A stretch of 64,000 nucleotides of DNA from Tessaracoccus defluvii (GTDB lineage Bacteria; Actinomycetota; Actinomycetes; Propionibacteriales; Propionibacteriaceae). Location of the stretch: the NCBI RefSeq assembly GCF_014489575.1, contig NZ_CP060789.1, positions 992,001-1,056,000 on the forward strand, given 5' to 3'. A program made the position numbers and the translations under genes. Below the pieces are notes generated by a model. It had not been told where the DNA came from. It made no database searches and was given only the letters and a program-made list of their open reading frames with translations. This document shows, one piece after another, positions 5,493 through 58,254 of the stretch (the first letter of the stretch is position 1; each line of letters opens with the position of its first letter).

Positions 5493-7637
<2,145 letters not shown>

Positions 7638-7733: not shown

Positions 7734-8851
7734 GTGCCCAGCTATCTCGACCACGCGGCCACCTCGCCCCTGCGTCCCGAGGCTCTCGAGGCCTTCACCG
7801 CGGCGTCCGCCGTCGTGGGGAACCCGGCGTCCCTGCACCGGCCCGGTCAGCGCGCCCGTTCGGCGCTGGAGGAGGCCCGCGAGGAGCTTGCCGCGGCGCT
7901 GGGGGCCCACCCGACCGAGGTGATCTGGACGTCAGGAGGGTCCGAGGCGGACTCGCTCGCCGTCCTCGGCGCCTGGGCCGCCACCCGCGCCGGCCGCCCG
8001 CGCTGCCTCGTGTCCGCCGTCGAGCATCCCGCGGTGCGGGGCGCCGTCGACCACGGCGCCGGGCTGCTGCCGGTGACGCCGTCCGGGGAGGTCGATGTGG
8101 AGGCCGCGGCCCGGCTCATCGGCGCGGACGTCTCTCTGGTCTCCGTGATGTGGGTCAACAACGAGACGGGCATCGTGCAGCCCGTGGAGCAGGTGCGGCG
8201 GCTGGCCGTCCGGGCCGGCGCCCTGATGCACAGCGACGCCGTCCAGGCACTCGGGCATCTGCCCCTCGACTTCGCGGCCTCGGGCCTCGACCTGCTGTCA
8301 GTGTCGGCGCACAAGGTCGGCGGCCCCGTCGGGGTCGGCGCCCTGCTGGGGCGGCGCAGCGTCGGGCTCGTGCCGCTGGGGCTTGGCGGGGGACAGGAGC
8401 GTGGGGTGCGCTCCGGCACGGCCTCGGTCCCACTCGCCGCCGCCTTCGCCCGCGCCACCACGTTGGCGGTCGCCGAGCTCGCCGCGGAGGCGCCCCGGCT
8501 GACGGCGCTGCGCGACGCGATCGCCGCCGTCGTCGTGGGGGTCGGGGGACGACTCAACTCCCGCCAGGACGGGGCCCCCACATCGTCAACGTCACCTTCG
8601 ACGGCGTCCGCGCCGACGACCTGTTGTTCCTGCTCGACCAGCGGGGCGTGCACGCCTCCGTCGGCTCCGCCTGCCGGGCCGGGGTGCACCAGCCGAGCGA
8701 GGTGCTGCTGGCGATGGGACGCACCCCGGACGAGGCGACCCAGTCGCTGCGGTTCTCGCTGGGCCGCGGCTCGTCGTCGGCCGACGTGGAGGCGTTGGCG
8801 CGGGCACTGCCCCCGGCCATCGATCAGGCCAGGGCCGCGTTCCGCGCGTAG
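7734..8851 (+). CDS. Cysteine desulfurase, NifS/IscS family (one frame break)
   Basis: This PLP enzyme takes sulfur from cysteine as a persulfide. The PLP lysine is in SVSAHKVGGPVGVGAL, and the persulfide cysteine is in SVGSACRAGVHQPSEVL. The frame breaks in CCCCC at 8575-8579; one added C joins QDGAP to HIVNVTFDGVRADD and gives 372 residues, normal for the family. mnmA starts 24 bases downstream, so the likely job is to donate sulfur for tRNA 2-thiouridine, as with the paired desulfurase and MnmA genes of other Gram-positives. A general role in Fe-S assembly is not excluded, but no scaffold gene is nearby. Confidence 0.9.
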
Positions 8852-15835: not shown

Positions 15836-17034
<1,199 letters not shown>

Positions 17035-31475: not shown

Positions 31476-31529
31476 GATGCCGCCGGGCAGGTTCCGGCGC
31501 AGTGTGCCCGCAACCGAGGAGGACCGTAG

Positions 31530-34500
31530 ATGGCTCAGACCGTGTTCCCGCAGCGCGAGAAGATCGGACTCTACGATCCCGCCTTCGAGCACGACGCCTG
31601 CGGCGTGGCCTTCGTGGCCCGCCTCGACGGCGTCGCCCGCCACGAGATCGTCGCCCAGGGCCTCGAGGCCCTGCGCAACCTCGACCACCGCGGAGCCACC
31701 GGCGCCGACGAGGCCGCGGGCGACGGCGCAGGCATCCTGATCCAGGTGCCCGACGCCTTCCTGCGGGGGGTCCTCGACGTCCGGCTGCCGGACGCGGGGG
31801 AGTACGCCGTCGGCATGGCGTTCCTGCCCACCGACGCGGCCTCCAGGCAGACCGTCAGGACGGCCATCGAGGCGATCGCCGACGAGGTGGAGCTCGACGT
31901 CCTCGCCTGGCGCGAGGTGCCCGTCCGCACCGAGACCCTGTCGCCCATCTCCATCGGCGCCATGCCGCACTTCGAGCAGCTCGTCGTCGCCGGGCGCGCA
32001 GGCCAGGCGGGCATCGACCTCGACCGCCTCGCGTTCGTCCTGCGGCGCCGTGTCCAGCACGAGGCCGGGGTCTACTTCTCGTCGTTGTCGGCGCGCACGC
32101 TCGTCTACAAGGGCATGCTGACCACCGATCAGCTCGAGGAGGTCTTCCCCGAGCTGCACGACGAGCGGATGGCCTCGGCGCTGGCGCTGGTCCACTCCCG
32201 GTTCTCGACGAACACGTTCCCGGCGTGGGAGCTGGCCCACCCGTACCGCCTCATCGCCCACAACGGCGAGATCAACACCGTCCGCGGCAACCGCAACTGG
32301 ATGCGGGCCCGCGAGGCCCTGCTCACCTCCGACCGGTTCCCCGGCGCGCTCGACAGGCTGTTTCCGATCTGCACCCCCGACGGCTCCGACTCGGCCTCGT
32401 TCGACGAGGTGTTGGAGCTGCTGCACCTGGGCGGGCGCTCGCTGCCGCACGCCGTCCTCATGATGATCCCCGAGGCCTGGGAGTCGCACGCGGAGATGGA
32501 TCCGGCGCGGCGGGCGTTCTACGAGTACCACTCCATGATCATGGAGCCCTGGGACGGGCCCGCCTGCATGACGTTCACCGACGGCACCCTGATCGGCGCC
32601 TGCCTCGACCGCAACGGGCTGCGTCCCGGCCGGTTCTGGGAGACCGACGACGGGCTGGTCGTGTTCGCCTCCGAGGCGGGGGTGCTGCCCATCGAGCCGG
32701 AGCGGATCGTGCGGAAGGGAGGCTCCAGCCGGGCCGGATGCTCCTGCTCGACCTCGAGCGCCACGCCGTCCTGTCCGACGACGAGGTCAAGGGCGCGCTC
32801 GCCGCGGAGCACCCGTACGAGAAGTGGGTCGCCGACAACAAGATCGTGCTCGACGCCCTTCCGGGCCGGGCCCACATCGTCCACTCGCACAGCTCCGTCA
32901 CCCGACGTCAGCAGGTCTTCGGCTACACGCAGGAGGAGCTGCGGGTCCTGATCGCCCCCATGGCGAACACGGGGGCCGAGGCCATCGGGTCGATGGGGAC
33001 GGACTCGCCCATCGCGGTGCTCTCCAGCCGGCCGCGGCTGATCTTCGACTACTTCACGCAGCTGTTCGCGCAGGTCACGAATCCGCCCCTCGACGCGATC
33101 CGGGAGGAGCTGGTCACCAGCCTCACGGCCAAGATCGGGCCGGAGCGCAACCTGCTCGAGCCCACCCCCGAGGCGGCGCGCCTCATCATCATGGGCAAGC
33201 CGATCCTCGACTCGGAGCAGCTGGCCAAGATCGTCCGCCTCAACCGCGACGGCGAACTCCCCGGCTACCACACGCACGTCGTCAGCGGCCTCTACAAGGT
33301 CGCAGGCGGGGGACGGGCGTTGGCGTCGCGGATCGACGAGCTGTGCGGGGAGGTCTCGGCCGCGATCCGGGGTGGCGCCCGCGCCATCGTGCTCTCGGAC
33401 CGCCACTCGACGCCCGAGCTGGCACCGATCCCGTCGCTGCTGCTGACCGCCGCCATCCACCATCACCTCGTCCGCGAGAAGACCCGCACCCAGGTGGGGC
33501 TCGTGGTCGAGGCGGGCGATGTGCGCGAGGTGCACCACATCGCGCTGCTGCTCGGGTACGGGGCGGCCGCCGTCAACCCCTACCTCGCGTTCGAGTCCGC
33601 CGAGGACCTGGCGCGGCGGGAGATGTACGTCGACGTCACGCCTGAGAAGGCGATCGCGAACGTCGCCAAGGCGCTGAGCAAGGGCGTGCTCAAGGTGATG
33701 AGCAAGATGGGCGTGAGCACCGTCGCCTCCTACACCGGCGCCCAGATCTTCGAATGCGTCGGCCTCGGCCGTGACGTGGTGGACCGCTACTTCACCGGCA
33801 CCACCAGCCGGCTCGGCGGGCTCAGCCTCGACCAGCTCGCCGACGAGATCCGCAGCAGGCACCTGCAGGGCTATCCGGCCGACGGGATCCCGCTGGCGCA
33901 CCGCGACCTGCAGGTCGGCGGCGAGTACCAGTGGCGTCGGGAGGGCGAGCCGCACCTCTTCGATCCGGAGACCGTGTTCAGGCTGCAGCACTCGACGCAG
34001 ACCGGCGACTATGCGGCGTTCAAGAAGTACACGGCGCTGGTCAACGACAACGCGCGCCGGATCATGACGCTGCGCTCGCTCATGGAGTTCCGCAGCAGGG
34101 AGCCGATCAGCATCGACGAGGTCGAGTCGGCCACCGAGATCGTCAAGCGCTTCTCCACCGGCGCGATGAGCTACGGCTCCATCTCGATGGAGGCCCACCA
34201 GACGCTCGCCGTCGCCATGAACCGCATCGGCGGCAAGTCGAACACGGGCGAGGGCGGCGAGGACCCGGAACGGCTCCACGATCCGCAGCGCCGCTCGGCG
34301 ATCAAGCAGGTCGCCTCCGGCCGGTTCGGGGTCACCTCCGAGTACCTCACCTACGCCGACGACATCCAGATCAAGATGGCGCAGGGGGCCAAGCCGGGGG
34401 AGGGCGGTCAGCTGCCCGGCCCCAAGGTCTACCCGTGGGTCGCACGGACGCGCCACTCGACGCCCGGCGTCGGCCTCATCTCGCCGCCCCCGCACCACGA

Positions 34501-36058
34501 CATCTACTCCATCGAGGACCTCAAGCAGCTCATCCACGACCTCAAGTGCGCCAACACCCGCGCCCGGGTCCACGTGAAGCTCGTCTCCGAGATCGGGGTC
34601 GGGACGGTCGCGGCCGGCGTGTCCAAGGCCAAGGCCGACGTCGTGCTGATCTCCGGCCACGACGGCGGAACCGGGGCCGCGCCCCTGACCTCCGTCAAGC
34701 ACGCGGGCGCCCCCTGGGAACTGGGCCTGGCTGAGACGCAGCAGACGCTGCTCCTCAACGGGCTGCGCGACCGGATCGTCGTCCAGTGCGATGGTCAACT
34801 GAAGACGGGCCGCGACGTGCTGGTCGCCGCCCTGCTCGGCGCCGAGGAGTTCGGCTTCGCCACCGCCCCGCTCGTGGTGTCCGGCTGCATCATGATGCGC
34901 GTCTGCCACAAGGACACCTGTCCCGTCGGCGTCGCGACGCAGAACCCCGAGCTGCGCGGTCGGTTCCACGGCGACCCCGACCACGTCGTCAACTTCTTCA
35001 TGTTCATCGCCGAAGAGGTGCGAGAACTGCTGGCGCAGCTGGGCTTCCGCACCCTGGAGGAGGCCGTGGGTCGCGTGGACCTGCTGGACGTGAGCGCCGC
35101 CGTCGGCCACTGGAAGACCAGTGGGCTCGACCTCGCCCCGATCCTCACTTCGATCACTCCGCCGCCGGGCACGGCGCTGCACCGCACCACGGTGCAGGAC
35201 CACGGCCTGGACGCCAAGCTGGACGTCGAGCTGATCCGCCTCGCGGCCCCGGCACTGACCGACGCCCTGCCGGTCCGGCACACGCTGCCCGTGCGGAACA
35301 TCGACCGCACGGTGGGCACGATGCTCGGCCACGAGGTGACCAAGGCGACCGAGGGGCGCGGGCTCGAGCCCGGCACGATCGACTTCACCCTGACCGGGAC
35401 CGGCGGGCAGAGCTTCGGCGCCTTCCTGCCGCGCGGCGTCACCCTGCGCCTGATCGGCGACTCGAACGACTACGTCGGCAAGGGGCTCTCGGGCGGACGC
35501 ATTGTCATCACTCCGCCGGAGGGGGCCGGGTTCGACCCGGCCACCCAGATCGTGGCGGGCAACGTCATCGGCTACGGCGCCACCAGCGGGCAGCTGTTCC
35601 TACGCGGCCTGGTCGGCGAGCGGTTCTGCGTCCGCAACTCGGGGGCGACCGCCGTCGTGGAGGGCGTGGGCGATCACGGCGTGGAGTACATGACGGGGGG
35701 CGAGGTCCTGGTCCTGGGCCCGACGGGCCGCAACTTCGGGGCAGGCATGTCCGGGGGAGTGGCCTGGGTGCTCGACGCCCATCCGTTGCGGCTCAACACC
35801 GAGCTCGCCGACCCCGTGCCGATGGCACCGGGTGACGTGGCGCGCGTGCGCGAGCTGATGGCCGAGCACAGGGCGGAGACCGGCTCGCTGGTCGCCGACG
35901 CACTGCTCCACCTCGACGACGCCACGCTGGCGCGCCGCTTCACCAAGATCGAGCCGCGTGACTACGCGCGCGTCATGGCCGTGCGGGCCACCTCGGCCGC
36001 CGAGGGGCTCGACGAGAACGAGACCACCCAGCTGATGATGGAGGCCGCTCATGGCTGA
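31530..36058 (+). CDS. gltB: Glutamate synthase large subunit GltB (one frame break)
   Basis: GltB takes ammonia from glutamine and aminates 2-oxoglutarate to glutamate. The mature N-terminus should be the Cys of [15 protein letters not shown] after removal of ~22 residues, forming the amidotransferase nucleophile. The synthase part has FMN-site and loop segments ([25 protein letters not shown]) and the 3Fe-4S cysteines in [18 protein letters not shown]. The C-terminal GXGXG beta-helix ends the protein. The frame breaks at 32717-32722; one added G gives [14 protein letters not shown] and 1509 residues. GAGGAGG precedes ATG 31530. It pairs with gltD by an 8-base overlap. Confidence 0.96.
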
Positions 36059-47435: not shown

Positions 47436-48737
47436 GTGCTCCGTACTCTCGATCTGACCGGCGTCGATGGCGCCTACCGCTCCCTGCTGCCCCGTGGTGA
47501 GTTCGACGTGGAGGCGGCCCTGGACCGGGTCCGCCCCATCGTCGACGACGTCGCCGCCAGGGGAGCCGAGGCCCTGACCGAGTACTCGCATCGCTTCGAC
47601 GGGGTTGTGCCGCCCTCGCTCCGCGTGCCCGCGGACGTGCTCGCCCGGTGTGCCAGTGAGCTCGATCCGCAGCTCGCGCAGGCGTTCGCCGAGGCGATCA
47701 GGCGTCGCCGCGCCGTCGCCGAGTCGCTGGAACGAGACGCCGATCCCGCGCCGGCCCAAGTGGCCGACGGCGCCCGCGTCGGGCTGCGGAACGTGCCGGT
47801 GCGTCGTGTCGGCCTGTACGTCCCCGGGGGCCTCGCGCCGCTGGCGTCCAGCGTCATCATGAACGTCGTCCCCGCGCAGGTCGCGGGCGTCACCTCCATC
47901 GCGATCGCCTCCCCGCCGCAGAAGGACTTCGGTGGGCTGCCGCACCCCAGCATCCTGGCTCTGTGCCACCTGCTCGGCGTGGACGAGGTGTACGCCGTCG
48001 GCGGCGCCCAGGCGATCGCCATGTTCGCCCACGGCGTCGCGGATCTCTGCGAGCCGGTCGACCTCGTCACCGGTCCGGGCAACATCTACGTCGTCGCCGC
48101 CAAGCGCCTCGTCCGCGGGCTCGTGGGCATCGACGCTGAGGCGGGTCCCACCGAGATCGCGATCGTCGCCGACGCCACCGCCGACCCCCGGTACGTCGCG
48201 GCCGACCTGATCTCTCAGGCCGAGCACGACCCTCTCGCCGCCGCCGTGCTCATCACCGCGTCGGAGGACCTCGCTGCGCGCGTGCAGGAGGAGGTGGCCG
48301 CCCAGGTGGCCGCCACACGGCACGCCGAGCGCGTCACCACCGCCCTCGCGGGGGAGCAGTCCGCGATCGTGCTGGTCCGCGACCTCGACCAGGCCGTCGC
48401 AGTGGCCGACGCCTATGCCGCGGAGCACCTCGAGATCCAGACCGCCGACGCCGCCGCCGTGGCGGCCCGGATCAGCAACGCCGGCGCGATCTTCGTGGGC
48501 GACTACTCGCCCGTCTCGCTGGGCGACTACTCGGCGGGCTCCACGCACGTGCTCCCGACCGCCGGCTGCGCCTGCCACAGCTCCGGGCTGACCGTCCGGT
48601 CCTTCATGCGCACCGTCCACGTCATCGACTACTCGCGCGAGGCGCTGCTCGAGATCGCCGACGGCGTCGAACTGTTCGCGCTCGCCGAGAACCTCCCCGC
48701 CCACGCCAACGCCGTGACGGTGCGGAGGGACGCATGA
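47436..48737 (+). CDS. hisD: Histidinol dehydrogenase HisD
   Basis: HisD oxidises histidinol to histidine in two NAD-dependent steps. The 433-residue protein has [18 protein letters not shown], the catalytic segment [31 protein letters not shown] and the zinc-site region [13 protein letters not shown]. The GTG start is set by the adjoining -10 hexamer. It overlaps hisC as ATGA and opens the his operon. Confidence 0.96.
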
Positions 48738-49823
48738 TCGAGCTGTCCGACCTCCCGCTGCGTGCCGACCTCGTCGGCCAGGAGCCCTACGGGGCGCCCC
48801 AGCTCGACGTCCCCGTCGTCCTGAACGTCAACGAGAACCCGTACCCGCCGTCGCCGGCGCTGCGCCACGAGATGGCCGCCGCCATCGTCGCGGCGGCCGG
48901 GGATTCAACCGCTACCCCGACAGGGAGGCGCTGGGGCTGCGCTCCGACCTCGCCGCCTACCTCGGCCACGGCCTGACCGCCGACAACGTGTGGGCCGCCA
49001 ACGGCTCCAACGAGATCATGAGTCACCTGCTCACCGCGTTCGGCGGGCCGGGGCGCAGCGTCCTGACGTTCACGCCCACCTACTCGATGTACCCGGAGTA
49101 CGCCCGCAACACGTGCACCACGTACGTCACGGCGCGCCGCCGCGACGACTACACGCTCGACGCCGGCCTGATCCTCGACGCCATCGCCCTGCACCGGCCC
49201 ACCGTCGTGCTGATCACCACGCCGAACAACCCGACGGGCACGGCCGTCAGCCTCGACGTCATCGACGAGGTGTGCGCGGGCACCGACGCGATCGTGGTGG
49301 CCGACGAGGCCTACCAGGAGTTCTCGGCCCGCCCCAGCGCCGTCGAGCTGCTCGACCGGCACGACCGGCTCGTGGTATCGCGCACCATGTCGAAGGCGTT
49401 CGCCCTGGCAGGGGGGCGCGTCGGCTACCTTGCCGCGGCCCCGGCCATCGTCGACGCCTGCCGCATCGTCCGGCTGCCGTACCACCTCAGCGCCCAGACG
49501 CAGGCCATCGCCCGGGTCGCGTTGGCGCACTCCGACGAGCTCCTGGCCCAGGTCCGGTCGCTCGCCGCCGAGGCCCGCGCGTTCGAGGCCTGGGCCCGGT
49601 CCCGCGGCTACGCCGTCGTCGACTCGGAGGCCAACTTCACCCTGTTCGGTCGGTTCGCCGACCGGCACCGCGTCTGGCAGGATCTGCTGGATCGCGGGAT
49701 CCTCATCCGCGAGACCGGCCCGGCCGGCTTCCTCCGCGCCTCCGCCGGGACCCCGAGGAGATGGCGCTGCTGAGCGCAGCGCTGGACGAGATCGCCCCGA
49801 CCATCGAAGGAGACGTCAAGTGA
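48734..49823 (+). CDS. hisC: Histidinol-phosphate aminotransferase HisC (two frame breaks)
   Basis: HisC transfers an amino group from glutamate to imidazole acetol phosphate using PLP. Breaks lie in GGGG at 48899-48902 (repairs to [15 protein letters not shown]) and GGG at 49747-49749 (repairs to [15 protein letters not shown]). The repaired length is 363 residues, normal for the family. Key parts are [32 protein letters not shown] and the PLP lysine in [18 protein letters not shown]. It overlaps both hisD and hisB by 4 bases. Confidence 0.94.
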
Positions 49824-51065: not shown

Positions 51066-51797
51066 GTGGAGAAGTTGCAGTTGCTGCCCGCGGTCGACGT
51101 CCAGGGCGGCCAGGCCGTGCAGCTGGTGCAGGGCATCGCCGGCACCCAGAAGGAGTTCGGCGACCCGCTGGAGGCCGCGCTCAGATGGCAGCGCGGCGGG
51201 GCCGAATGGCTCCACCTGGTCGACCTTGACGCCGCCTTCGGGCGCGGCTCGAACGCCGACCTGCTGGCACGGATCGTCGCAGGCGTCGACATGCAGGTCG
51301 AGCTCTCCGGAGGCATCCGGGACGAGGAGTCGCTGCAGCGCGCGCTGGCCAGCGGCGCCCGCCGCGTCAACATCGGCACGGCCGCGCTCGAGCAGCCCGA
51401 GTGGTGCGATCACGTGGTGGCCGAGTACGGCGACAGGGTCGCGATCGGCCTGGACGTGCGCGGCGAGAACCTGGCGGCCCGGGGCTGGACCACCGAGGGC
51501 GGCCCCTGGACCGAAACGCTCGACCGCCTCGTCGCGGCCGGCTGCGAACGGTTCGTCGTCACCGACGTCAACGCCGACGGCATGCTGACCGGCCCCAACG
51601 TCGACCTCCTGCAGGCCGTCGCCGCCCGCAGCGGCCGCAAGGTCATCGCGTCGGGGGGCATCGCGACCCTCGACAACCTCCGGGACCTGCGCACCCTCGT
51701 CGATTCCGGGGTCGAGGGGGCCATCATCGGCACCGCCCTGTACGTCGGCCGGTTCACGATCGAGGAGGCCCTCGCGGTGGCCGGGGGAGAGGCCTGA
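51066..51797 (+). CDS. hisA: Phosphoribosyl isomerase HisA/PriA
   Basis: HisA isomerises ProFAR in histidine synthesis; the actinobacterial form PriA also performs the TrpF reaction. The 243-residue barrel has the catalytic Asp residues in [18 protein letters not shown] and [15 protein letters not shown], with [16 protein letters not shown] and [13 protein letters not shown] around the phosphate site. No trpF gene accompanies the trp genes and trpC is not fused to one, so dual PriA activity is the economical reading. The sequence alone does not prove it. Confidence 0.92.
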
Positions 51798-54138
51798 TGG
51801 TCCAGCCACCCGCCAGCACGTTCGGCACCGCCAGCGTCGTCCACACCCCGCCGCTGCTGGACGGGCGGATCTCCGACCTGCTCGCAGGCAAGAAGATCGT
51901 CATGACCGGCGTGACGGGCTTCATCGGCGAGCAGCTGCTGTGGAAGGTGCTGCGGGACTGCCCGGACACCACCACCGGCGTCATCGTCCGCCGCAAGGGC
52001 TCCGTCACCGCGCACCAGCGCGTGGTGTCGCTGCTGAAGAAGAAGATCTTCGCCGACATCGTGGCACAGGCGGGCGGCGTCGAGGAACTCATGGCCGCCC
52101 GGGTCCAGGTGATCGAGGGCGACCTGCCCGACGTTCCCGACCTGCCCGCCGACCTCGACGTGCTGCTCCACTGTGCCGGGGACGTGTCGTTCGACCCGCC
52201 CATCGACCAGGCGTTCATGACCAACGTCGTCGGCACCAAGGCGCTGCTCACGAAGCTGCGCGAAGCCGTCACCGACGACGACGGCAACCTCATCAAGGTG
52301 CCGCACTACCTGCACGTCTCCACTGCCTACACGGCGGGACGGCGCCGTGGCACCATCCCGGAGGCCGCGCACGTGCACGACGTCGACTACGACGCGGAGA
52401 CGGCGGCCGCGCTGGCCATGAAGGAACACGTCGAGGCGCGTTCCCGCAGCTCCGAGCAGCTGACGAAGCTGCGCGAGGAGGCCGAGGCCCTGCACCGGCA
52501 GGCCGGCTACCTCACCACGTCGGCCGACACCGAGCGCCGTCGCCTCGAATGGGTCAAGGCCGAACTCGTGGCCGCCGGCACCGAGCGCGCCCGCTCGCTG
52601 GGCTGGACGGATGTCTACACCTTCGCCAAGGCCATGGCTGAGCGGGTCGTCGCCGACCTGGCCGGCGACTTCATGGTCTCGATCGTCCGCCCCGCCATCG
52701 TCGAGTCGTCGCTGCGGCAGCCGTACCCCGGCTGGATCGAAGGCTTCAAGATGGCCGACCCGATCATCCTCGCCTACGGCCGCGGCCAGCTGCCCGAGTT
52801 CCCCGCCTCCCCGGACGCGGTGATCGACATCATCCCGTGCGACATGGTCGTCAACGCCATCATCGCCGTCTGCGCGACCCGGCCGGAGCCCGGGAGCCCG
52901 GAGTTCTACCACTGCAGCTCCGGCGCCAGGAACCCGCTGACGTTCCGGGGCGTCTACGAGCACGTGCGCCAGTACTTCACCGACCATCCGTACACCTCGG
53001 GGCAGGGCTCGACCCCGCTGGCGACCTGGAACTTCCCCGGCGCGGAACCCATCGAGCGGTTCATGTGGCTCGCGGACAAGGGCGTCACCCTCGGCAACAA
53101 GGTGCTGTCCTACGCCCCCCGCGGCAGGAAGACCCGCAAGCTGGCCACGTCGCTCGACAAGTCCGCAAGCAGCTCGACTTCCTCGGCAAGTACCTCACCC
53201 TCTACGGCGAGTACCTCCAGTCCGAGCTCCACTTCGTCGACGACTGCACGCTGGCGCTGCACAACTCGTTGCATCCCGACGACGCCGACTCGTTCGGCTT
53301 CGACTCGGCGAGCTACGACTGGACGCACTACATGCAGGAGGTGCACATCCCGGCCATCACCGACCCGGTGCGCCGCCTCGAGGCCGCCCGCAAGCGACGC
53401 CAGGGCCGCTCCGAGACCTACCGGACGCTGCAGCCAACCACCCCCGGCACGGTGCTGGCCGCCTTCGACCTCGACGGCACCGTCATGGCCACCAACGTGG
53501 TCGAGACCTACCTGTGGGCCAGGATGCCGGAGCTCTCTCCGCTGCGCCGGGTCCGCGAGGTCGTCAGCGTCGCCGCCCAGCTGCCGATGTACCTGGGCGC
53601 GGAGCGGCGCGACCGCGGCGTCTTCCTCCGCTCGATCTACCGGCGCTACGCCGGCGCCGATCTCGCGGAGCTGGAACGCTACGTCGACGAGCGGCTCGCG
53701 CCCCTGATCCTCGACCGGATGTCGCCCGCCGCGATCCGGCGGATCCGGGAACACCGCGACGCCGGCCACACGACCATCCTGATGACGGGCGTCATCCGGC
53801 CGCTGACCCGCCCCTTCGAGGGCCTGTTCGACACCATCGTCGCCGCGGAGCTCGCGACCGATGCCGACGGACGCTGCACCGGGTTCCTGAGCGGCCCGCC
53901 CATGGTGGGGGAGTCACGCTCCGCGTGGCTGCGTCACTACGCGCAGCTCCACGACATGGACCTCGGCCGCTCGTTCGGGTACGCGGACAGCCACGTGGAC
54001 CTGCCCATGCTCGAGGCCGTCGGCAACCCCGTCGCGGTCAGCCCCGACATCGGCCTCATGAGGGCCGCCAAGTCAAAGGGCTGGTCGATCGTCGAATGGC
54101 CCGAGATCTCTCCCGTGCCCCGCTGGAGGATGCCGTGA
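51797..54138 (+). CDS. Fatty acyl-CoA reductase-like SDR fused to HAD-IB phosphatase (one frame break)
   Basis: The N-terminal ~530 residues match the fatty acyl-CoA reductase (male sterility/NAD-binding 4) family, with TGVTGFIG near residue 37 and catalytic YTFAK near 274-278. The C-terminal ~220 residues form a complete HAD-IB phosphatase: AFDLDGTVMATN near residue 557, LMTGVIRPL and GYADSHVDLPMLEAVGN. The frame breaks at 53161; one added G gives LDKVRKQLDFLGKYL and 780 residues. ATG 51797 overlaps the hisA stop as TGATG. It may reduce an acyl-CoA to aldehyde or alcohol and remove a phosphate in the same pathway. The substrates are unknown. Confidence 0.82.
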
Positions 54139-54154
54139 ACGGAAAGGACCGCTG

Positions 54155-55674
54155 ATGTCGCGCCCAGGATTCGTGCTGGAGGTCGACGACCGGACCCCGC
54201 AGCTGCTGACCATGTCGGGGGCGCAGCTGCGCCTCGACCGCCTCGGCGTCGGGACCCATGTCGTGTATGCGGCGGACGCCGAGGAGTCGAGCGATCCGGT
54301 GCCGCTGATCGACTCGGCCCTGTCGGCCCCCAGGGGACCGCGGCGCTGCTGGACCAGCTGCACCCGGACCTCAAGCTGACCCTCGTCGTCGTCGACACCG
54401 AACGGCCGCTCCCGCAGCCGCGGTTCGATCCCCGGCGCACGCTGGCCGAGCAGGTGCTCGCCCTGGCGGCCCGTGCCGGGGTCACCGACGTCGAGGTCGT
54501 CATCGCCAACGGGCTGCGGAAGCGCTGGAACAGCGATGACATCACCCGTGTCCTCGGCGACCGGGTCGCCACCAGCTTCCTGCCCGACGGCCTCATCACG
54601 AGCCATGACGTCACCGGCGCCGACCTGGTCACGGTCGGCGAGGTCGATGGGGTCCCGGTCCGGCTGAACCGCCGGGTCGCGCAGTCGGACCTCGCGGTCG
54701 TCATCGGTCTGCGGGCAGACAACAGCGACGGCTGCGCACTCTCGGCCGGGCTCACCGACGTGGCGACCATCAACCGCATCGGAGGAGCCGACGGCGATCC
54801 GCAGCTGGCGGTGGCCGTCGGACGCCTGGTCACCTCGGCCGTCAACACGTTCGCGCTCACGGCAGTGCTGGGCCAGCCGCTGTTCGACCGGACCCTGCGC
54901 TTCACCTCCAAACGGGAGTGGGAGTGGACGGCGCTCGACCGGCTCGCCTTCGCCGTGGAGCGGCAGGTGGTGGCAGGTCTGCCGCGTCGCGGCGCACAGA
55001 TCGTCCGCGGCGCGCTGCGGGCCGACTACCCGGTCATCGACGTGCTGGGCGGCACCTACGAGACCGTGCTGACCGAAGCCCGAGACGTCTGGCAGGCCGC
55101 CAACGCCGTCGAGACCCCCGGCCCCGCGGACGTCCTCGTGACGTCGGTCTGGGGCGCCGGGGTCGACGAATCCGACCCGATCGGCTCCCCGCTGGATGCC
55201 GCCCACCACGCGCTCGTGCGGCAGGCGGGCAGCCACCTCGGCTCGCCCTTCGTCCGTGAGGACGGCGTGCTGATCGCCATGCACCCGCTGCGCAACCGGT
55301 TCTCGAACCGTCGGCAGTCGGCGGCGTCCGACTTCTTCGCGAAGGTACTCACCGCGACGCTCGACCCGCAGGAGATCGCGGCAGCCCACGAGGCGGCCGC
55401 CATCTCCGACGAGTGGTACCTCGACCTGTACCGCAAGCACCACGGCGCGCACCCGCTGCACGTGTTCCATCAGTGGTACGACATCGCCCGTGCGGCGGCG
55501 CAGCTCGGAGACGTGATCTGGGTCGGGGGAGACCGGCGCTCCGCGGCCGTGCTCGGCCACCGCTCCGCGACGACCTACGCCGACGCGCTGGAGATCGCCT
55601 CGGACCGTGTGGGCCCCCACCCGTCCATCACGGTGCTGCGCGGTGCCGGACTGGCTCTCGGCGACGTGCGATGA
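54155..55674 (+). CDS. LarA/DUF2088-family protein with altered active site (one frame break)
   Basis: LarA is a lactate racemase that carries a nickel-pincer cofactor on a lysine. This 506-residue protein keeps the N-terminal layout (LTLVVVDTERPLP, VTDVEVVIANGLRKRW) and a His in LITSHDVTGADLV. Where LarA has the PH...GGxK segment with the second His and cofactor lysine, it reads VIGLRADNSDGCALSAGL, apparently lacking both. It may be a LarA homologue without racemase chemistry. The frame breaks in CCCCC at 54327-54331; repair gives LSAPQGTAALLDQLHPDL. GGAAAGGA precedes ATG 54155, and the next gene overlaps as ATGA. Confidence 0.75.
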
Positions 55675-56461
55675 GCAGAAAGCTGCCCTCCTGGGCCCAG
55701 TCCCGCTCCGGACGCCAGCGCCCGTCGCTGACGTTGCCGGGCGACCTGGTGGTGCAGGCCGGAGCGGCGCTGAGGCGCCGCCGGCCACGCAACGCCCCCG
55801 CACCGGTGCCCGTCAGCCGTGAGGTGGGGCTGCGGGCCTACCTCGCCGGTCGGCACCTGACGCTGAGGCTGCTCAGCCTGCGTTTCGACATCGAGCTGGT
55901 CGGCGCGGACGCCCTGACCGGGCTGCGGCACCCCTTCGTCTTCGGCGCGAACGAGCAGGGAGTCCTCGACTACCAGATCCTGCGCCTCGCGCTGCCGTCC
56001 CGGCTCCGGCCGACGATGATCGCGCCCTCCCGGGCTCTGGCCGCCGCCGCAACGTCGTCGTCTTCACCGATGAGGCGGTCGGTACCCGGATGGTGGGGGA
56101 GTTCTCCGGGGTCGCAGCCGGGCTGGCCAGCCAGCACAACGTCGCCATCGTCCCCGTCGGGCTCGTCGGCACTTTCAAGCTCAAGGAACTGCTGAAGCTG
56201 CCGCTGCGGACCAGGCCGAAGGTGTCGATCCGCTTCGGCGCCCCGATCTACGTGCGGGGCCGCCAGCTCGACGAGGCCACACGCGAGCTGCAGCAGCGCG
56301 TCGAACAGCTGGTCCACGAGGGCGACCTGACGTGGTGGACGGTCGAGCGGCGCCGCATCGTCACGCCGGACGCCGGCCCCGTCGACCCCGTGCCGCGGTG
56401 GCGCAGGCTCTGGGACCAGTCGGCGCCCACGCCGCCGGCCCGCCGCCGCATCTGGCGCTAG
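55671..56461 (+). CDS. PlsC-like acyltransferase homologue lacking the catalytic His (one frame break)
   Basis: The 263-residue protein resembles 1-acyl-glycerol-3-phosphate acyltransferases. A break at 56039-56040 repairs to RALGRRRNVVVFTDEAVGT. Where the family has the catalytic HxxxxD motif, this reads FGANEQGVLDYQ, with Glu (about residue 95) in place of His. The FPEGTR block is also altered to FTDEAVGTR. The later IVPVGLVGTFKLKEL segment fits motif III. It is either an inactive or repurposed acyltransferase or a member of a distinct subfamily. It is coupled to the LarA-like gene by ATGA. Confidence 0.75.
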
Positions 56462-56476
56462 CCGGGAGGCCCGATC

Positions 56477-57439
56477 GTGACCGACATGGACCTGTACATC
56501 GAGCCGCACCTGCGCTGGCGGCTGCTGCAGTCCGGCGACGCGGAGGCGCTCGCCGCACTGCGCACCCAGCTCGAGGCGCTCGACAACTCGGTGCTCACCG
56601 GGCTGGGCGCCGAGTTCACCGGCCAGGACACGCACGTCCCGGCCGCCCTGGCCGTCGGCGGCTGGGACCCCTACGACTCGCTGTCGGCGTACGGGCTGGC
56701 CTACCAGCCTGACGAGTCGGTGCTGAAGCTCCACCTGCTGGGAGGGGTCCATCCCGTGCACCGGCACATGTCCGTCGGATCGTCGCTGCTGCGCTGGCAG
56801 GTGGAACGCTCGATCGCGTGGCGCGACGAGGTGCACCCCGGGCAGGACCTGACGCTCTGCTGCCACGCGGAGACCGGCCGACCCGGGCTGGAGAGGGCCG
56901 CGCTGGCCATCGGCTTCACGCCGGAGCGCTACTACTACGACCTACACCGCGACCTCGGCAGCCCCATCCCAGAGCGCACTGTCGACGGCGTGCGCGTGGT
57001 CTCCTTCCCTCCGGAGCGCTCCGATGACGTCCGGCGGGTACACAACCGCTCGTTCGCGAACCTGGGCAGCGCCGAGGTGTCGCCCGAGCAGTGGGGGGCC
57101 CGGATCGAGGATCCCGCCTTCCGACCCGAGTGGTCGTCGATCGCGCTGGTGGGCGAGCGGGTCGTCGGCTACGCCCTGTGCGTCGAGGAGGGCGAGGCGG
57201 GACAGCGTGTCGGCTGGACGGAGCGCTTCGGCGTCGACCCGGACCACCGGAGGCGCGGCATCGCGCTGGCGCTGCTGAGCCGCAGCCTGCGGGCGATGAG
57301 GGCGGACGGTTGCGTCGAGGCGGGCATCGGCATCGACACCCCGGACGGCCTCGGGCTGGCGCGCATCGGCGAGGACCTCGGCTACACGACGCGCGACGCG
57401 GTCGCCCTCCTGACGAGGGTCGTTCCCGCGGACCGGTAA
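56477..57439 (+). CDS. Tandem GNAT acetyltransferase
   Basis: The 320-residue protein appears to have two GNAT-like halves, as in mycothiol synthase and related enzymes. The C-terminal half has a good acetyl-CoA loop: ERFGVDPDHRRRGIALALLS, followed by GLGLARIGEDLGYTTRD. The N-terminal half is more degenerate. GTG 56477 lies 15 bases after the PlsC-like gene and may belong to that operon. The substrate is unknown; I see no specific evidence that it is MshD itself. Confidence 0.75.
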   Translation: MTDMDLYIEPHLRWRLLQSGDAEALAALRTQLEALDNSVLTGLGAEFTGQDTHVPAALAVGGWDPYDSLSAYGLAYQPDESVLKLHLLGGVHPVHRHMSVGSSLLRWQVERSIAWRDEVHPGQDLTLCCHAETGRPGLERAALAIGFTPERYYYDLHRDLGSPIPERTVDGVRVVSFPPERSDDVRRVHNRSFANLGSAEVSPEQWGARIEDPAFRPEWSSIALVGERVVGYALCVEEGEAGQRVGWTERFGVDPDHRRRGIALALLSRSLRAMRADGCVEAGIGIDTPDGLGLARIGEDLGYTTRDAVALLTRVVPADR

Positions 57440-57480: not shown

Positions 57481-58254
57481 ATGTCCGGCCATTCCAAGTG
57501 GGCGACAACCAAGCACAAGAAGGCCATCATCGACGCCAAGCGCGGCAAGCTGTTTGCCAAGCTGGTGAAGAACGTCGAGGTGGCTGCACGCATCGGCGGC
57601 GGTGACCCCGGCGGGAACCCCACCCTCTACGACGCCATCCAGAAGGCCAAGAAGTCGTCGGTGCCCAACGACAACATCGACCGCGCCGTCAAGCGCGGTT
57701 CCGGTGCCGAGTCCGGTGGCGCCGACTACGAGACGATCATGTACGAGGCGTACGGCCCCGCCGGCGTCGCGGTGCTCATCGAGTGCCTGACCGACAACCG
57801 CAACCGCTCTGCCTCCGACGTGCGCGTCGCCGTCACCCGCAACGGCGGGACCATGGCCGACGTCGGCTCCGTCCAGCGGCTGTTCTCCCGCAAGGGCGTC
57901 GTGACGATCCCGAAGGCCCAGGAGTCCGGCGAGCTCTCCGAGGACAGCGTGCTCGAGGCCGCCCTCGACGCGGGTCTCGAGGAGGTCGTCGACGGCGGTG
58001 AGGCGTGGGAGGCGCTCTGCGATCCCAACGACACCGTCGAGGTGCGCAAGGCGATCGAGGCCGCCGGCCTCGACTACGACTCGTCCGAGGTGCAGTTCGT
58101 CGCCTCGTTCGATCAGGCGGTCGACAGCGTCGACGTGGCGCAGAAGATCTTCCGGATCATCGACGCGCTCGAGGACTCGGACGACGTGCAGAACGTGTTC
58201 ACCAACGTCGACCTCACCCCCGAGGTCGAGGCCGCGCTCGAGGCAGAGGACTGA
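57481..58254 (+). CDS. yebC: YebC/PmpR-family (TACO1-like) protein
   Basis: The 257-residue protein begins [20 protein letters not shown], the family signature, and runs through [20 protein letters not shown]. YebC proteins have been described as transcription regulators and, more recently, as factors that ease ribosome stalling at proline-rich stretches. Its place just before ruvC is conserved widely. A GTGGGAG site precedes ATG 57481. Confidence 0.95.

Follow-up and report, generated by a model that had tools for sequence, protein, structure and literature searches.

The closest described relatives of the three genes treated here come from separate systems. LarA groups LarAH14, 15 and 16 are collected in NF052592; groups 12, 13 and 16 do not conserve the catalytic and cofactor residues, and a LarAH14 protein from Frankia showed no activity on the substrates tested (Desguin et al. 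2020, PMC7583248). The acyltransferase PlsC (1-acyl-sn-glycerol-3-phosphate acyltransferase) and fatty acyl-CoA reductases with a FAR_C domain are represented by the structures PDB 5kym and PDB 7eoz. In Myxococcus xanthus, the elb operon brings together FAR-like, acyltransferase and HAD phosphohydrolase domains, and elbD is needed for most of the ether lipid (PMC9131029). Here, we analyzed a 64,000-nucleotide stretch of the Tessaracoccus defluvii genome (the window; NCBI RefSeq assembly GCF_014489575.1, contig NZ_CP060789.1, positions 992,001 to 1,056,000, forward strand), in which three coupled genes encode a fatty acyl-CoA reductase fused to a HAD-IB phosphatase (FAR/HAD), a LarA-like protein and a PlsC-like protein. 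On balance, we lean towards the view that this operon encodes a reduced lipid-type pathway, in which FAR/HAD would be active while the LarA-like and PlsC-like proteins would persist as pseudoenzyme partners. The operon and its motifs are located in the window as follows.

51797-56461, plus strand: operon of three coupled genes following priA
51797..54138, plus strand: FAR/HAD, with NAD_binding_4, a weak FAR_C/Sterile match and a HAD-IB phosphatase; one frame change near 53150-53170
51905..51928, plus strand: TGVTGFIG, nucleotide-binding motif of the reductase
52616..52630, plus strand: YTFAK (YxxxK), catalytic motif of the reductase
53467..53481, plus strand: DLDGT, nucleophile motif of the HAD domain
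53983..54000, plus strand: ADSHVD, motif of the HAD domain
54155..55674, plus strand: LarA-like gene, related to LarAH14/15/16, without the nickel-pincer cofactor site; one frame change near 54327-54346
54604..54606, plus strand: His codon of SHD, equivalent of the catalytic His108 of LarA
54706..54780, plus strand: stretch replacing the GG[HWD]K...HHH segment (Lys184/His200 equivalents) of the ancestral LarA
55671..56461, plus strand: PlsC-like gene, all three acyltransferase motifs lost or broken; one frame change near 56040-56060
55950..55970, plus strand: NEQGVLD, with Glu replacing the His of HX4D

An earlier note, made from the sequence of the window, had described three coupled genes with gaps or overlaps of 16 bases or less, and this layout was confirmed. 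The FAR/HAD ATG at 51797 overlaps the stop of the upstream priA by 1 base, the LarA-like ATG at 54155 follows FAR/HAD after a 16-base gap, and the PlsC-like gene, with its ATG at 55671, shares 4 bases with the LarA-like stop. Each gene is split between two frames, which the note had omitted. The order priA-FAR/HAD-LarA-like-PlsC-like, with adjacent genes, was found in 28 of 29 loci of the Tessaracoccus/Arachnia-type genus (hereafter the genus; the family is Propionibacteriaceae), the remaining locus, L063, being cut by a contig end. The adjacency of the four genes is not due to chance. By FAR/HAD protein, the closest named relative is Tessaracoccus bendigoensis (83% over 451 columns).

All motifs of FAR/HAD that had been reported as intact (TGVTGFIG, YTFAK, DLDGT and ADSHVD) are indeed present. 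The window protein matched NAD_binding_4 (6.9e-45) and HAD (3.6e-33), and FAR_C (Sterile) scored 30.2 bits in the window piece and 37.4 bits in the relative L052, against a cut-off of 35.4. As in fatty acyl-CoA reductases, TGxxGxxG and YxxxK lie inside the NAD_binding_4 domain; the HAD part scored 103 bits for TIGR01490 (HAD-IB; cut-off 98.3), with the DxD nucleophile and the DxxxD motif in place. When a relative was used as query, the best solved relative of the FAR domain was the fatty acyl-CoA reductase 7eoz (1.1e-44 over 505 residues). Of the 26 genus sequences with open frames, 25 have undamaged FAR and HAD motifs, while L067 deviates with DLNGT; all four motifs occur in 74 of 76 named sequences. 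Public names for the fusion, retrieved with a phylum-level relative as query, include alcohol-forming fatty acyl-CoA reductase and HAD-IB family hydrolase; no published description of its reaction was found among the literature matches listed. FAR/HAD is described here as an intact and likely active enzyme, which would make a fatty alcohol or aldehyde and dephosphorylate a partner molecule.

Outside the family, FAR/HAD belongs to a conserved cassette that additionally contains a zinc alcohol dehydrogenase (ADH). In a first set of 60 genomes including that of the window (36 from the genus, 24 at order level), a LarA-like match was obtained in all 36 genus genomes, in a few as fragments only, and in 18 of the 24 order-level genomes. 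The order FAR/HAD-ADH-LarA-PlsC was seen in 9/9 order-level cassette loci, and the named genera that show it include Kribbella, Actinopolymorpha and Nocardioides. We also used a phylum sample of 296 genomes including the window genome, counting LarA above the NF052592 cut-off and FAR/HAD, full or partial, at E-values under 1e-40. FAR/HAD was present in 71/71 genomes with LarA versus 7/224 others (the window genome was left out, as both genes are present but diverged). Four of these seven carry LarA fragments below the cut-off (G154, G197, G200, G345); the other three are G123, which is 62% complete, G099, with a different LarA on another contig, and G317, with a weak match to the LarA start at a contig edge. 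The earlier view that these are not three housekeeping enzymes is supported by this co-occurrence. Among 20 phylum loci fetched, 15 had a FAR/HAD-linked LarA; ADH was detected in 14 of them (not in L140) and PlsC in 11. PlsC was undetected in L122, L130, L132 and L136, the last of which ends there. In the other five of the 20 loci (L133, L134, L135, L138, L141), LarA paralogues are present without the cassette.

Within the family, FAR/HAD was found in 50 of 116 genomes (window genome left out, fragments counted) and a LarA-like gene in 39, all of them among these 50. Different FAR/HAD relatives, 42-47% identical to the outside type, occur in L152-L156 (family genera g212, g215 and g228) and were not counted among the 50. 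No ADH, LarA or PlsC matches lie near them, and in several of them an in-frame stop interrupts the matched region, which may mean that FAR and HAD are separate genes there.

The LarA-like protein of the window is related to LarA over its whole length, and the alignment of its C-terminal part runs through to the last positions of NF052592. The match (9.6e-81) is nevertheless far under the 740-bit cut-off: the window piece scored 271.7 and the genus relative L033 314.6 bits, versus 915.3 for L061 from another family. For the LarA residues, we use the numbering of LarA (His108, His174, Lys184, His200). In an alignment with the sequences of LarA and LarA-like crystal structures, Lys184 lies in GGxK and His200 is the last His of HHH. 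The window protein has kept the His108 equivalent (SHD, as in 26/26 genus sequences), and the equivalents of His174, Lys184 and His200 are absent. Hence the second active-site His and the cofactor lysine are missing, as had been noticed before, and His200 is missing too. We then counted the cofactor lysine and the nickel-ligand histidine across the cassette, excluding the paralogue L060 and after dropping broken or short sequences, five paralogue loci and L059. Both residues are kept in 24/24 cassette LarA sequences outside Propionibacteriaceae and both are lost in 46/46 sequences of the family (26 from the genus, 20 other). A selection of the named loci (33 of 80) agrees: the Lys184 and His200 equivalents are absent in 24/24 from the family and kept in 8/8 from outside. 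The His174 equivalent is absent in all these cassette sequences, including those outside the family, and LarAH groups 14 and 15 are likewise described without it (PMC12611868). The genus proteins differ from LarAH14/15/16 by also lacking the Lys184 and His200 equivalents.

At the His108 position, 7 of the 24 outside sequences carry another residue, namely Phe in L054, L055, L061, L128 and L136 and Tyr in L130 and L132. These seven cofactor-type LarA proteins are without both catalytic histidines, yet they have the cofactor lysine and the nickel ligand, which tells against His108 being simply essential.

LarC is needed for synthesis of the cofactor. No LarC was found in the window genome. It was present in 18/18 order-level genomes with the cassette, in 0/6 without it and in 7/36 genus genomes; LarE exceeded its cut-off in the same 18/18 order-level cassette genomes and in 6/36 genus genomes. 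With the window genome left out and weak matches counted, LarC occurred in 62/71 cassette genomes versus 130/224 others in the phylum (p 3e-6), and in 17/39 family genomes with a LarA-like gene versus 32/77 without one (p 0.84). LarC thus tracks LarA in the phylum and not in the family, where the LarA-like protein is uncoupled from synthesis of the nickel-pincer cofactor.

The PlsC-like protein shows a comparable loss. PlsC sequences from outside the family have kept NHxSH[LV]D and PEG[TGA]R in 20/20 cases. In the window protein, Glu stands in place of the His of HxxxxD (NEQGVLD), as the earlier note had seen; what it had missed is that motif III (PEGT) is gone as well, together with the segment carrying motif II. 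An intact HX4D was found in 0/29 genus sequences: 25 have Glu, two Gly, one Ala, and L065 has the His without the Asp. Motifs II and III are missing in all 29. The altered sites are therefore conserved in the genus, the Glu itself in 25 of 29 only. The homology of these proteins to PlsC was established by a profile built exclusively from genus sequences, which still finds 5kym (4.7e-5), and by alignment with members of PF01553; in Pfam, the one genus protein scanned gave no match, and two cassette homologues from outside the family match PF01553. In addition, the C-terminal WW...WRRLW region is strongly conserved. Within the family, with its loss of the dehydrogenase and of ACYLTRANSFERASE, the PlsC state is graded from intact to lost: it is intact in L119 and L231, nearly intact in L191, partly eroded in L102, L105, L121, L196, L198 and L199, and lost at the far end of the series, as in the genus. 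In the Raineyella-type loci (g226; L114, L116 and L203), the LarA-like gene is kept and no PlsC was detected before yebC.

ADH was found neither in the 20 other family loci nor beside FAR/HAD in the named family loci, with the exception of the metagenome-assembled genome (MAG) locus L191. The motif GICGSD is present in 50/50 cassette sequences outside the family (some genomes counted twice). The L191 copy is 63-65% identical to the best outside copies and has GISGSD, so that Ser replaces the Cys of GICGSD, presumably a catalytic zinc ligand. A strict loss of ADH on the family stem was withdrawn because this nested family MAG retains the cassette ADH; its distribution thus reflects either several losses or a single regain. 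A FAR/HAD tree (94 sequences, quick method, with the SH-like approximate likelihood ratio test, SH-aLRT, as sole support and several long branches flagged) placed Propionibacteriaceae in one group (SH-aLRT 100) beside Kribbella and Nocardioidaceae. The group also holds a few otherwise-named sequences (L206, L231 and some MAGs). The missing LarA cofactor site is compatible with a single event on the family stem, whereas the loss of ADH and the erosion of PlsC are compatible with a number of later ones.

To assess selection, ratios of nonsynonymous to synonymous substitution rates (dN/dS) were calculated over pairs with 0.1<dS<1.5, a set that includes several genomes twice and distant pairs near saturation. 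The median was 0.40 for the LarA-like genes (range 0.13-0.57, 938 pairs) and 0.47 for the PlsC-like genes (0.09-0.84, 885 pairs), with every pair below 1, and 0.21 for FAR/HAD (0.03-0.35, 1046 pairs). In the pair with the lowest dS, L046/L048, the values were 0.18, 0.13 and 0.05, respectively; the six distinct lowest-dS pairs gave 0.16-0.53, 0.13-0.56 and 0.05-0.32. The LarA-like and PlsC-like genes are thus under purifying selection, which is weaker than that on FAR/HAD.

Because the cofactor lysine of LarA and the His of PlsC are kept outside the family, the altered sites represent losses specific to this lineage, which descends from an ancestor with four enzymes, a zinc ADH among them. The earlier note would have taken homologues with intact residues as a refutation; such homologues exist outside the family, and they do not sink its idea. 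What changes is the character of the pathway: the two atypical active sites point to a reduced derivative with probable pseudoenzymes, not to a fresh pathway with unusual catalysts. In the proposed scenario, an old actinobacterial cassette of FAR/HAD, zinc ADH, nickel-pincer-type LarA and PlsC would have lost the LarA cofactor site on the stem of Propionibacteriaceae, and dehydrogenase and acyltransferase activity in branches of this family. A LarA without its site and a PlsC without its motifs, both kept beside FAR/HAD, suggest a non-catalytic partnership. The two proteins might, for example, be subunits that hold FAR/HAD at the membrane or guide its substrate.

The lipid-type pathway suggested earlier fits the 7eoz relative, the HAD and PlsC domains and the resemblance to elb, while the product is one that we infer. 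Among described operons, elb comes closest in its kinds of enzyme, and it supports a lipid role by analogy. It differs in that ElbD additionally has acyl-CoA synthetase and acyl carrier protein domains, and the available sections of PMC9131029 mention no LarA or zinc dehydrogenase. For the genus and family, the matches listed for dimethyl acetals, plasmalogens and fatty alcohols contained nothing useful. LarAH groups 14-16, FAR/HAD fusions and PlsC are already known. Among the matches listed from open-access texts, none names LarA or a nickel-pincer enzyme together with a fatty acyl-CoA reductase or HAD-IB, and no account of the cassette or of the joint active-site loss was found among the literature matches listed, supplements aside; the context table of the 2020 LarA superfamily study may list parts of the cassette.

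Several observations weigh against a reduced pathway with pseudoenzyme partners. The LarA-like and PlsC-like genes are dispensable over evolution: 11 of the 50 family genomes with FAR/HAD show no LarA-like gene (ten of these loci have no LarA or PlsC match near FAR/HAD, and the eleventh, G439, lies at a contig end), and the uncultured Arachnia L175 has lost both the LarA-like and the PlsC-like gene. Both genes evolve about twice as fast as FAR/HAD, as slow decay would also give, and in the window every one of the three operon genes has a frame break. Several cofactor-type LarA proteins outside the family are also without the His108 equivalent, and 9 of the 71 cassette genomes have no LarC match, so that the ancestral LarA chemistry is unsure. 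Finally, both proteins may have acquired a new catalytic function.

A more specific version of the history can be offered tentatively. The ancestral cassette might have been a nickel-pincer-dependent lipid pathway of Actinomycetota in which LarAH14/15, together with FAR/HAD, ADH and PlsC, acted on a long-chain or lipid-derived hydroxy acid; this would provide a context for the orphan LarAH14/15 groups. It would then have been rewired in Propionibacteriaceae, where nickel chemistry, dehydrogenation and acylation would have been dropped and LarA and PlsC kept as non-catalytic subunits of FAR/HAD.

We consider it rather unlikely that the LarA-like and PlsC-like proteins are functionless remnants of a dying pathway in which only FAR/HAD matters. 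Slow decay of this kind would agree with the gradual erosion of PlsC motifs within the family, with dN/dS values above that of FAR/HAD and with the nested losses. PlsC without LarA was found in 0/67 named loci in which 3.5 kb or more follow FAR/HAD, LarA without detected PlsC in L194, L203 and the Kribbella locus L222, and FAR/HAD with neither gene in L175, L181 and L205; this nested pattern indicates a retention order in the family of FAR/HAD > LarA > PlsC. However, a functionless gene is expected to break or vanish over such divergence, whereas LarA-like frames of 500-506 codons are open in 26 loci of a deep genus, the tightly coupled gene starts are retained, and dN/dS is below 1 in every pair, including the closest one.

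It is improbable that the two proteins acquired cofactor-free activities and remain enzymes of a modified lipid pathway. The SHD, which is kept throughout the genus even though some outside cofactor-type LarA proteins carry Phe or Tyr in place of that His, and the strongly kept C-terminal region of the PlsC-like protein would be in line with this. No replacement catalytic set is visible, and the segments with the nickel-ligand His and with PlsC motif II are missing, not swapped. That the HAD domain is the missing histidinol-phosphatase of the adjacent his cluster, with the rest of the operon a passenger, is very improbable and was set aside: the domain shows weak similarity to HAD-type enzymes of this function (80.8 bits, cut-off 280) and the operon follows priA in the genus and several order-level loci, but a HisN-like gene matches in 116/117 family genomes (6 above the cut-off of 275.15, most full-length matches at 240-275 bits, some genomes with weaker or partial matches only), and no priA match was found in phylum-level cassette loci outside the order, some of them shortened by contig ends.

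None of the three operon genes is one open frame in the window, each changing frame once at the positions given above. In 26 genus loci of relatives, FAR/HAD spans 777-788 codons and the LarA-like gene 500-506, each without a frame change, and the PlsC-like frame has 245-271 codons in 28/29 genus loci (it was called as 314 in one). The window genome is a single contig of 3.86 Mb. Five more genes of the window shift frame when set against the syntenic region in one relative, at approximately 120, 6995, 8575, 32717 and 48905, and a sixth does so near 16350 when set against a paralogue. In these other genes and in the first two operon genes, the size of the shift corresponds to one missing base (two added bases would look alike). 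The HisN-like gene of this genome is also split over two frames, and the assembly seems to carry many small indels. Since these other genes break as well, the breaks in the operon are probably assembly indels, and strain-specific decay is not favoured; reading them as the sign of a dead operon in this strain was set aside. Our further statements therefore rest on relatives with open frames. The genus loci L050 and L051 likewise have broken frames; in L051 (genome G008), the hisH, priA, FAR/HAD, LarA-like and GNAT genes are all frame-broken, suggesting another noisy assembly. The neighbouring genes and the other frame-shifted genes of the window are as follows.

51066..51797, plus strand: priA (hisA/trpF), located upstream, with a 1-base overlap between its stop and the start of the reductase
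56477..57439, plus strand: gene for a GNAT-family acetyltransferase, which follows the operon in most genus loci examined
57481..58254, plus strand: yebC, conserved downstream neighbour
1-365, 5553-7560, 7743-8833, 31506-36055 and 48734-49761: other frame-shifted genes, identified from the open frames of a relative

With these results, the LarAH14/15/16 groups gain a strict genomic context of FAR/HAD, zinc ADH and PlsC, so that the range of candidate substrates narrows to lipid-type hydroxy acids. The genomes of the family form a natural series: active sites have disappeared from three enzymes of a single operon, and two of the proteins have nonetheless been retained. This offers a tractable system for studying the role of pseudoenzymes. 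If FAR/HAD does make fatty alcohols or ether lipids in Propionibacteriaceae, this would represent a bacterial lipid route still to be described.

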